A stretch of DNA of 64,000 nucleotides from Mesonia aestuariivivens (GTDB lineage Bacteria > Bacteroidota > Bacteroidia > Flavobacteriales > Flavobacteriaceae): contig NZ_JAHWDF010000017.1 in the NCBI RefSeq assembly GCF_019311235.1, positions 1 to 64,000 of the forward strand, read 5' to 3'. The position numbers and the translations under genes were made by a program. The notes under the pieces are model-generated. The model made no database searches. It had not been told where the DNA came from and saw only the letters and a list, made by a program, of their open reading frames with translations. Position 1 is the stretch's first letter. The number at the start of each line of letters is the position of its first letter. This document shows positions 14,746 to 16,643 of this stretch, one piece after another.

Positions 14746-15597
14746 TTATAAAACCATTTTTTCGATAGGACAGATTAAAATTCCTTCGGCACCATTTGCT
14801 TTTAACTCATCAATAACTTCCCAAAAGGTTTCTTCATTGATCACAGAGTGTAACGAACTCCATCCTTCTTTAGCTAGAGGAAGCACAGTAGGACTCTTCA
14901 TTCCTGGTAAAATTTCTATAATTTTAGCTAAGTTTTTATTGGGGGCATTCAGCAATACATATTTTGAAGTCCTCGCTTTTAAAACAGATTGAATGCGAAA
15001 TAGTAGTTTATTTAAAACTTGATTGTTTTCTGGAGAAATTTTTGGAGAAACAGCGATAACTGCTTCACTTTTTAAGATTTGTTCTACCTCTTTTAAATTG
15101 TTTTTGAACAAGGTACTTCCGCTAGAAACGATATCTACGATGGCATCTGCCAAACCAATATTTGGAGCAATTTCAACAGAACCTGATATTTGGTGTAAAT
15201 CTGCTGTGATTCCTTTTTCAGCTAAATAATTTTTAACCGTATTGGGATAAGAAGTTGCGATTTTTTTTCCTTGTAATTGTTTTAAATCGCTAAATTCTTT
15301 GTCTTTTGGAACAGCGATAGAAACGCGGCATTTAGAAAAACCTAATTTTTGAAGAATTTCTATATCTTCACCTTTTTCAATTAAAAGATTTTCACCGATA
15401 ATCGCCATATCGACTACGCCGTCTCTTAAATATTGAGGTATATCTCCATTTCTTAAATAAAGAACTTCTAAAGGGAAATTACTAGATTTGGTTTTGAGTT
15501 GATCTTTACCGTTATCAATGTAAATTCCTGCTTCTTTTAGAATTTTAATAGAATCGTCGTGTAAACGTCCTGATTTTTGAATCGCAATTGTTAGCAT
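14746..15597 (-). CDS. hisG: ATP phosphoribosyltransferase (long form)
   Basis: The first enzyme of histidine synthesis, condensing ATP and PRPP; it is the feedback-inhibited step. From the Met at 15597 (MLTIAIQKSGRLHDD) it has 283 residues, matching the long HisG form with a C-terminal ACT-like regulatory domain (about 205-283). The open frame continues to 15639, but that part overlaps the attenuator terminator, so the shorter start is chosen. The PRPP-binding DIVSSGSTL motif is visible around residue 155. A His-rich leader and terminator lie immediately upstream. Confidence 0.96.
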   Translation of the reverse strand: MLTIAIQKSGRLHDDSIKILKEAGIYIDNGKDQLKTKSSNFPLEVLYLRNGDIPQYLRDGVVDMAIIGENLLIEKGEDIEILQKLGFSKCRVSIAVPKDKEFSDLKQLQGKKIATSYPNTVKNYLAEKGITADLHQISGSVEIAPNIGLADAIVDIVSSGSTLFKNNLKEVEQILKSEAVIAVSPKISPENNQVLNKLLFRIQSVLKARTSKYVLLNAPNKNLAKIIEILPGMKSPTVLPLAKEGWSSLHSVINEETFWEVIDELKANGAEGILICPIEKMVL

Positions 15598-15640
15598 TTT
15601 TTTAAAATAAAAGTTTGAGCAGTTAAAATAGGGCAACAAA

Positions 15641-15669
15641 AAACCCGTTTGAACTACTCAAACGGGTTT
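15641..15669 (-). terminator. his operon attenuator terminator
   Basis: A perfect 12-bp stem on the minus strand (AAACCCGTTTGA at 15669-15658, TCAAACGGGTTT at 15652-15641) with a 5-nt loop, running into a T tract. It lies 35 bp after the leader peptide stop and 44 bp before the hisG start. It is an intrinsic terminator inside the operon leader. Confidence 0.92.
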
Positions 15670-15703
15670 GTAAATTATTTTTTGAATTTCATCAAACACA
15701 TAA

Positions 15704-15760
15704 TCACCTCGCTTGAGCGTGGAAATGAATATGATGATGATGTAAATTAATTTTTCTCAT
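15704..15760 (-). CDS. hisL: His operon leader peptide
   Basis: An 18-codon frame encoding MRKINLHHHHIHFHAQAR; six of residues 7-14 are histidine. It lies directly upstream of an intrinsic terminator and hisG, the classic layout of ribosome-mediated transcription attenuation: when charged tRNA-His is scarce, ribosomes stall on the His codons and the terminator does not form. An in-frame ATG at 15775 would give a 23-residue form, but it overlaps the likely -7 element. A small hairpin (15707-15722) covers the leader end and may be the alternative structure. The peptide itself probably has no function. Confidence 0.9.
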   Translation of the reverse strand: MRKINLHHHHIHFHAQAR

Positions 15761-15768
15761 TGTGATTA

Positions 15769-15776
15769 CAAACATA
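15769..15776 (-). promoter_or_regulatory. Probable -7 promoter element of the his operon
   Basis: TATGTTTG on the minus strand matches TAnnTTTG. It ends 8 bp before the leader ATG, so the transcript would have only a few bases before the leader peptide. No clear -33 TTG is seen. Confidence 0.5.
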
Positions 15777-15824
15777 TAAATAATTTTAAAATAATTTCTA
15801 ATTTTAGAAAAATTTAATAGTTGT

Positions 15825-16643
15825 CTAATTATTTCCTAGAATAATTGGTAAACCTCCATCTCCTCCTCCAATAACAATAACTTTAGAGTTATTAGATTTA
15901 GAAAGTTCAATTGTGGCTTGTATTCCTTTTTCTTTTAAAACTTTGTCTGTTAAAGACTCACTTAAAATTTTATTAGCAACGGCTTTACCTTCTGCATCAA
16001 TTCTTTGTCTTTCTGCTTCTTTGGTCGCTTTGGTCAATCTAAATTCATATTCTAAAGATTCCTGCTCTTGGCGTAATTTACGCTCAATAGCTTCTTTAAT
16101 GGTCGTAGGTAAAGAGACATCTCTTACCAAGATTTCATTTACCTGCACATATTGATCTTTTAGAAGAATTTGCGTTTCTTCTAATATTTCTTTTTGAATA
16201 GCTTCTCTTTTACTTGCATACAATTGCTCTGGACTATAGCGTCCAACCACAGCTCTAGCAGCAGATCTTACTGCAGGTTTAAGTAATCTTTCTATATACT
16301 TATCCCCTTTCTCTTTATGTAATTTTCCTAAATCTGCATATTTGGGTTGAAACCAAGTAGAAGCATCTATTCTAATCTCTAAACCATTAGAACTTAAAAC
16401 TTGCATTTTTTCATCGAGTGATTGTTGTCTAACTTCATAAACAAAAACACTATTCCAAGGAGCTACAAAGTGAAAACCTTCACCCATTGGTGGCTCATCT
16501 GTTACTACACCGCCGTCTAGTGTTTTATATAAAACACCCGCTTCACCAGAACCAATGGTTACTGTAGCTTTAAAAATAATAATTATAAATACAATCCCAA
16601 TAATAACGATAGGGATAATTGCTTTAGGTAGTCTGTTGTTCAT
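15825..16643 (-). CDS. Prohibitin-like SPFH/Band 7 membrane protein
   Basis: A 272-residue membrane-anchored SPFH-domain protein. One N-terminal membrane segment (about 11-29) is followed by the Band 7 domain (about 30-200) and a charged alpha-helical region (about 175-245: RQEQESLEYEFRLTKATKEAERQR) typical of prohibitins and flotillins. Such proteins assemble into membrane rings that organise proteases and lipid domains; the bacterial role of this one is not known. It is 9 bp downstream of the vWA membrane protein gene and probably cotranscribed with it. Confidence 0.88.
   Translation of the reverse strand: MNNRLPKAIIPIVIIGIVFIIIIFKATVTIGSGEAGVLYKTLDGGVVTDEPPMGEGFHFVAPWNSVFVYEVRQQSLDEKMQVLSSNGLEIRIDASTWFQPKYADLGKLHKEKGDKYIERLLKPAVRSAARAVVGRYSPEQLYASKREAIQKEILEETQILLKDQYVQVNEILVRDVSLPTTIKEAIERKLRQEQESLEYEFRLTKATKEAERQRIDAEGKAVANKILSESLTDKVLKEKGIQATIELSKSNNSKVIVIGGGDGGLPIILGNN

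Follow-up and report, generated by a model that had tools for sequence, protein, structure and literature searches.

The his operon of Escherichia coli is preceded by a leader in which a run of His codons is followed by an intrinsic terminator before hisG, and the alternative pairing of the leader RNA is set by the position of the ribosome. Leaderless attenuator sORFs rich in Cys are known from mycobacteria. Comparative surveys of attenuation, such as one from 2010, are said to list candidates from the Bacteroidetes.

Within the phylum, strong signs that amino acid operons are attenuated through leader peptides have been reported for Flavobacterium psychrophilum, together with a conserved structured 5' element at hisG that occurs in other genera too and is without an Rfam match (PMC9723704), and the long 5' UTRs of Bacteroides thetaiotaomicron hold sORFs reminiscent of attenuation leaders (PMC7366714). 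An initial annotation of the locus described here had called peptide attenuation less described in this phylum, a statement that is only partly right given the F. psychrophilum clues and the hisG element already found in PMC9723704. Neither the kind of mechanism nor the presence of an element at hisG is therefore new. A literature search on hisG leader peptides in Flavobacteria, mostly among papers outside subscription, yielded that one paper only, and searches on his attenuation or on amino acid attenuators in Bacteroidetes, with some papers judged by title, yielded none on this subject.

We analyzed a 64-kb stretch of DNA from Mesonia aestuariivivens, the whole of which is called the window below, and in which a -7 box, a leader ORF, a terminator and hisG follow one another in that order on the minus strand. 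From comparison of sequences we consider it very probable (roughly nine chances in ten) that the leader of this his operon is a ribosome-mediated transcription attenuator. It would provide a detailed and testable anatomy of amino acid attenuation in a phylum without Shine-Dalgarno starts.

The hisG leader and its relatives

The features of the locus are listed in the order in which they are discussed, each with the basis of its assignment.

15776-15769, minus strand: -7 promoter box TATGTTTG of the TAnnTTTG type (sequence, with the spacing rule from PMC9723704 and PMC6847099; boxes also in relatives)
15764 or 15763, minus strand: predicted transcription start (spacing from the -7 box)
15760-15704, minus strand: leader ORF MRKINLHHHHIHFHAQAR, 18 codons from an ATG at 15760, plus TGA at 15706-15704 (sequence; conserved in relatives)
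15742-15731, minus strand: putative regulatory run of four CAT (His) codons, codons 7-10 (sequence; ribosome geometry)
15717-15706, minus strand: region 2, predicted 5' strand of the antiterminator, CTCAAGCGAGGT, within the last leader codons (conserved CTCARGCG type; partner of region 3 in the MFE structure of 15658-15725)
15696-15681, minus strand: small hairpin between leader stop and terminator, shortening the antiterminator loop (folding; similar TTGA...TCAA seen by eye in relatives)
15669-15657, minus strand: region 3, the 5' arm of the terminator, AAACCCGTTTGA plus a G, common partner of regions 2, 4 and 5 (sequence, folding)
15652-15638, minus strand: region 4, the 3' arm, TCAAACGGGTTT plus further T residues (sequence, folding)
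15624-15613, minus strand: region 5, AACTGCTCAAAC, complementary to GTTTGAGTAGTT (15663-15652) and 15 nt upstream of the hisG ATG (shuffle tests, covariation; 3:5 pairing in the MFE structure of 15590-15695)
15597-14746, minus strand: hisG, first gene of the operon, ATG at 15597 (PF01634, 1e-51; PF08029)
14641-7781, minus strand: rest of the operon, hisD, hisC (aminotransferase), hisB, hisH, hisA, hisF and hisIE (ORFs; Pfam family and gene order)
15825-16643, minus strand: Band 7 gene upstream, in the same direction as hisG (ORF list, Pfam)

Pfam matches 3' of hisG identify a histidinol dehydrogenase, an aminotransferase, hisB (IGPD with a HAD-type phosphatase part) and a glutamine amidotransferase, and later in the operon two His_biosynth proteins and then a PRA-CH/PRA-PH protein. 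Among the named relatives listed, Mesonia oceanica is the nearest, with a HisG identity of 93%.

The annotated leader of 18 codons with six His in eight residues is present at 15760-15704, its six His lying within residues 7-14. It is the sole short ORF of the window with at least four His in eight residues (two nested starts in one frame). The His run by itself is not rare, as CAYCAYCAYCAYNNNCAY occurs six times in the genome against once for the reversed control, while the arrangement CTCARGCGAG...CGTTTGAG occurs once and its reversed control not at all.

HisG was detected in 123 of 149 Flavobacteriaceae genomes, and the upstream stretch of all 123 was taken for the comparison that the initial annotation had proposed as a check. 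This comparison strongly favoured the annotated interpretation. An automatic test for a short ORF before hisG with at least three His in eight residues was passed by 119/123 loci, and a terminator with a score of at least 30 was called in 122/123, the exception being a locus truncated by a contig end. In three of the failures of the His test the best eight residues hold two His (L024, L074, L120), and the fourth is truncated by a contig end (L059). One further locus, L085, passed on a wrong reading frame, and the leader in its likely frame, MQNIKLHTHQFSIAQVR, contains two His. Named relatives passed in 79/80 cases, a set that overlaps the family set (the L003 = L190 pair, for example) and whose related sequences, like those of the family set, are not independent. 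Read by eye, the sole miss among these 80 (L194) has a frame that starts with TTG and contains two His and then two Tyr, and its terminator is the same in its core. His-rich leaders also stand in most of the loci examined class-wide (49/54 sampled hisG loci, among them L125, which belongs to the Flavobacteriaceae). Those without such a frame are L150, L157, L171, L176 and L177; in the last two, what precedes hisG resembles, by eye, a further coding gene. Three loci from one family of the class (L130, L170, L178) have very short leaders with His codons right after a putative start codon (MHHHHFCA, MHHHHYFCA).

The initial annotation described the leader as almost leaderless, with the -7 box 8 bp from its ATG. 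The box is indeed there, with TATGTTTG ending 8 nt upstream of the ATG, and the TAnnTTTG box has been placed at -12 to -5 (PMC9723704) or 4-5 nt before the start site (PMC6847099); by either spacing rule the promoter predicts a 5' UTR of 3-4 nt. Across loci the distance from box to ATG is bimodal, at most 11 nt in 45/120 and 14-24 nt in 75/120, with no box in 1/121; L085 was left out of this count, many of the boxes match only 5/6 letters, and the two distances of 2 nt (L024, L033) are due to spurious boxes, a likelier box standing at 8 nt in both. Taking 4-5 nt from box to start, 5' UTRs of the short-distance class are predicted not to exceed about 7 nt. Leaderless transcripts make up 5.5% of the mRNAs examined in F. 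psychrophilum (PMC9723704), leaders are longer than 10 nt in 87% of the predicted transcripts of F. johnsoniae (PMC6847099), and about 3.7% of B. thetaiotaomicron 5' UTRs are shorter than 10 nt (PMC7366714).

The layout of the his leader recurs at trpE, where a leader with consecutive Trp codons and a terminator behind it was found in 30/30 family genomes (L289 in the genome of the window, and L290-L318); these trp leaders are near-leaderless in many of the same genomes. Of 28 genomes compared, 9 have the short box distance at both leaders, 12 at neither, 3 at his only and 4 at trp only, with G056 miscounted as his only, its right trp leader being 7 nt from the box. Since the his and trp leaders show the same two start classes, the near-leaderless trait appears partly to follow lineage. 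The trpE leader in the genome of the window (upstream of C23:85015-86352) has a predicted 5' UTR of 0-1 nt (TATCTTTG, 5 nt, ATG). Upstream of ilvD in that genome (C23:227173-228786; L259) there are a leader, MNRNLTIISIIILVIIIPIMN, and a terminator, which likely form a branched-chain attenuator. In the other 29 ilvD loci a terminator lies about 240-380 nt before the ilvD match or none was found.

Competing structures and ribosome geometry

The terminator, AAACCCGTTTGA-GTAGT-TCAAACGGGTTT, occupies 15669-15641 on the minus strand and has the perfect 12-bp stem that had been annotated ahead of hisG, with a 5-nt loop and further T residues behind. The gap between leader and terminator, given earlier as 35 bp, exists and counts 34 nt. 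RNA of 15700-15630 folds as the terminator (-18.8 kcal/mol, z -3.5 vs shuffles) and RNA of 15725-15658 as the antiterminator (-15.4 kcal/mol, z -2.5 vs shuffles); the four leader segments that were folded are all more stable than their shuffles (z -3.5, -4.1, -2.5 for the antiterminator, and -4.0). The CTCAA/TTGAG pairing suggested previously as the alternative structure is real, and in folding it extends further, to CTCAAGC plus GGT/ACC. Antiterminator and terminator are mutually exclusive, as region 3 is shared by regions 2 and 4.

Among relatives, the mean duplex energy of region 2 with region 3 and the loop is -13.4 kcal/mol against -6.5 for shuffled region 2, and the duplex lies below the mean of its own shuffles in 109/111 loci. 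Listings inspected by eye indicate that region 3 variants with CGTCTGAG go with CTCAGGCG-like versions of region 2 and a matching region 4. Leaders of the Salinimicrobium type have CTCTTGCG as region 2, which pairs more poorly, and in the class outside this family the terminator often has another sequence. The CGTCTGAG type of terminator arm is also carried by L121, the stretch upstream of hisG in G053, a genome labelled as the same genus; its HisG is only 59% identical, while that of some other genera reaches 77%, and horizontal replacement or an odd grouping is possible.

The small hairpin annotated over the leader end (15707-15722) does appear in the MFE structure. It is weak, however, and by eye it is not conserved. 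A 1:2 pause hairpin of the E. coli his kind was not evident, with only this kind of weak hairpin over region 2 in the window. A conserved CTC-AAGC-GAG hairpin within region 2 was considered and rejected, being lost by eye in QAK, QAN and QAG leaders.

The spacing of codons and RNA segments was measured in 111/121 loci, ten having been dropped for want of a region 2 found by motif search. Counted from the first base of the codon that closes the first His run, region 2 is 16 nt away in 82/111 loci and 17 nt away in 14/111, and the distance is kept although the run varies in length from 2 to 5 His. From region 2 to the stop codon there are 11 nt in 84/111 and 10 nt in 14/111. The footprint of a ribosome, counted from the first base of the codon in its A site, extends over about 13 nt. 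With 16-17 nt in 96/111 loci, a ribosome stalled on the last codon of the run would therefore barely clear region 2, and one that has reached the stop codon would sit on it; classical attenuation needs this geometry. A stall at the later His codons (12 and 14 in the window) would not free region 2. The near-invariant 16-17 nt from the last His codon of the run to the antiterminator is in effect a natural ruler of the ribosome.

The proposed course of events begins with a near-leaderless transcript, in which the His-rich frame would be the first feature made by RNA polymerase. When charged tRNA-His is scarce, the ribosome would stall in the CAT run and leave region 2 (15717-15706) free to pair with region 3, and the terminator would be blocked. 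When His is plentiful, the ribosome would reach the stop codon and cover region 2, and 3:4 pairing would terminate transcription. It is hardly credible that the His-rich frame is instead untranslated and that the terminator simply serves the Band 7 gene upstream or keeps basal his expression low: the Band 7 gene (15825-16643) does have the same direction as the his genes, but the promoter box stands downstream of it, the frame, the codon identity and the ribosome geometry are all conserved, and at trpE Trp codons stand in place of His.

The peptide has a conserved C-terminus, QAR or QAS, that RNA pairing probably explains better than a peptide function would, in view of the region 2:3 duplex and the matching variants of regions 2, 3 and 4. 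Seven leaders (L008, L183, L195, L233, L244, L086, L116) end early by eye, with TAG or TAA inside the QAR end, and in these seven region 2 can still pair with region 3 via G-U. Early stops that leave the pairing possible would be expected from selection on the RNA rather than on the peptide. A Shine-Dalgarno-like role for the GAGGTGA at the leader end was rejected, as many relatives have GAGCTGA, GAAGTGA or GCAGGCTGA there and in the window its GGT serves in the antiterminator.

A complementary segment between terminator and hisG

In most of the family loci tested, the spacer between terminator and hisG contains a segment complementary to about 13 nt of region 3 and the terminator loop. This region 5, at 15624-15613 in the window, was missed in the initial annotation, whose layout had no downstream partner. 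Examples from other loci are GTTTGAGTAAATC with GATTTACTCAAAC, GTTTGAGACAATC with GATTGTTTCAAAC and GTCTGAGTAAATC with GATTTACTCAGAC. Significance was assessed by dinucleotide shuffles of each locus's spacer in 119/123 family loci (L059, L061, L081 and L111 are without a recognisable region 3 or a complete locus) and in 78/80 of the named set (L194 and L241 left out). In the family p was at most 0.005 in 63 loci, at most 0.015 in 73, at most 0.05 in 78 and above 0.05 in 41 of 119; in the named set, which overlaps it, p was at most 0.015 in 39/78 and above 0.05 in 31/78. When region 3 was dealt among loci and the best site sought again, the result was 945 +/- 17 (maximum 1010 in 2000 trials) against a true 1235.

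Parsimony on the HisG tree counted 30 double compensatory changes, 57 single changes that keep the pair and 38 to or from a non-pair, in one reconstruction restricted to the 65/108 loci that scored 9 or more for region 5. All 30 double changes fall at pairing positions 7-12, with 24 at positions 7-10, in or beside the terminator loop; part of the changes at positions 10-12 reflects terminator loops that differ in length. Positions 7-10 of this pairing are under no constraint from 2:3 and little from 3:4. Positions 7-11 are paired in 92% of cases, as opposed to 65 +/- 2% after dealing in a control without re-optimisation. The pairing is also sharply bounded, with 81-100% over 13 positions and then 0/73 and 1/73 towards CCC, where about 0.11 is expected. 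Pairing of regions 3 and 5 is well supported by these comparisons.

In 55/73 loci the distance between the end of region 5 and the hisG start is 12-18 nt, and region 5 is tied to the start codon more than to the terminator (24/32 vs 16/32 distinct region 3 sequences, best 7-nt window). The terminator ends at most 32 nt from the start codon in 17/41 loci without region 5 and at least 34 nt from it in 73/73 loci with region 5. In five loci from some of the genera (L010, L026, L034, L041, L043) a short hairpin-like sequence (e.g. CCCGCTTTCTCGGG, CCTGCATTCGCAGG) separates region 5 from the hisG start, and region 5 then lies 33-47 nt upstream of the ATG. In the class-wide set, only L125, L129, L131 and L158 reached p of at most 0.02 among the 37 loci with a usable terminator; L125 is itself of the Flavobacteriaceae, L131 of the same order, and L129 and L158 are labelled as other families of the same class. 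At trp leaders a region 5-like partner was found in 0/30 at p of at most 0.01 and in 2/30 at p of at most 0.05.

As region 5 is transcribed after the terminator, it cannot prevent termination, and it would have to act in read-through RNA or be a target in trans. The role that we prefer, while holding it to be doubtful, is that region 5 takes region 3 in read-through transcripts and tunes translation of hisG. A single ribosome translating a single leader peptide might then control the his operon twice in the Flavobacteriaceae and their near relatives, at termination and afterwards at translation: with the ribosome unstalled, 3:5 pairing would close the stretch upstream of the hisG start, and with it stalled, 2:3 pairing would be kept and the stretch left open. 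Region 3 would pass between region 2 and region 5 in the finished mRNA, and translation too would follow histidine supply. Such an arrangement, if true, is a four-segment switch with a partner beyond the terminator. The position of region 5 at about -15, fixed to the start codon rather than the terminator, is consistent with this, as is the reported influence of RNA structure between -20 and +20 on translation initiation in flavobacteria (PMC6847099), and the MFE structure of the window's post-leader RNA (15590-15695) forms 3:5. Across loci, however, 3:4 and not 3:5 is the MFE structure in 62/73, and in nested folding openness did not differ between stalled and unstalled states either at the hisG start region (0.58 vs 0.57, n=73) or at region 5 (0.36 vs 0.37), so thermodynamics lends the translation role no support.

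A trans mechanism, in which the terminated leader RNA would bind region 5 on read-through his mRNA, with its loop making first contact, is unlikely. The complementarity takes in the exposed terminator loop and covaries with it, and a trans-acting attenuator RNA has been described, rnTrpL of Sinorhizobium, but the cis copy of region 3 is always closer. Moreover, the genome has four copies of AACTRCTCAAAC, two at the his locus and two elsewhere, and also four of its reversed control, so there is no sign of further targets. It is very improbable that region 5 is not an RNA partner but half of a DNA operator site or a repeat arisen by chance: at the DNA level it does form an inverted repeat with the terminator arm, yet from lineage to lineage its bases follow those of the terminator loop, G-U pairs included, which speaks against a fixed protein site, as the bases of such a site would stay the same. 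A pseudoknot that keeps the lower terminator stem and places region 5 on the upper part was also considered. The sharp stop at CCC fits it; the linker of about 4 nt seems too short for 13 bp, and it was set aside. Tuning of hisG translation through 3:5 pairing is retained here only as the preferred candidate role.

Relation to known attenuators

The structured element at hisG in F. psychrophilum concerns the same family and the same gene as the Mesonia leader, and the portions of that account at hand (PMC9723704) give no anatomy, ribosome geometry or downstream partner, which the present analysis does. The putative leader sORFs of B. thetaiotaomicron are from the same phylum; in the corresponding portions of the report BT_4401 is named and his is not (PMC7366714). 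In the literature searched we did not find described the anatomy, the class-wide spread, the two start classes or, above all, region 5, which, if functional, would couple transcriptional and translational control of one operon via one sensor.

The Rfam covariance model of His_leader (RF00514) gave no match in the window up to E = 1. Weak matches to nine other Rfam families, one of which is Trp_leader (RF00513) with an E of 0.91, all stay below the respective gathering scores.

The Cys-rich sORFs of mycobacteria likewise start at or near the 5' end of the transcript and carry regulatory codons. They belong to another phylum and concern another amino acid, and the Mesonia start site is a prediction from the promoter. 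The enterobacterial hisL leader (RF00514) resembles the Mesonia leader in its His run, in the terminator before hisG and in an alternative pairing that would be set by the ribosome. Unlike hisL, the Mesonia leader has three evident pairing segments up to the U-tract and no evident pause hairpin, it starts without a Shine-Dalgarno sequence, and it has an extra partner downstream of the terminator.
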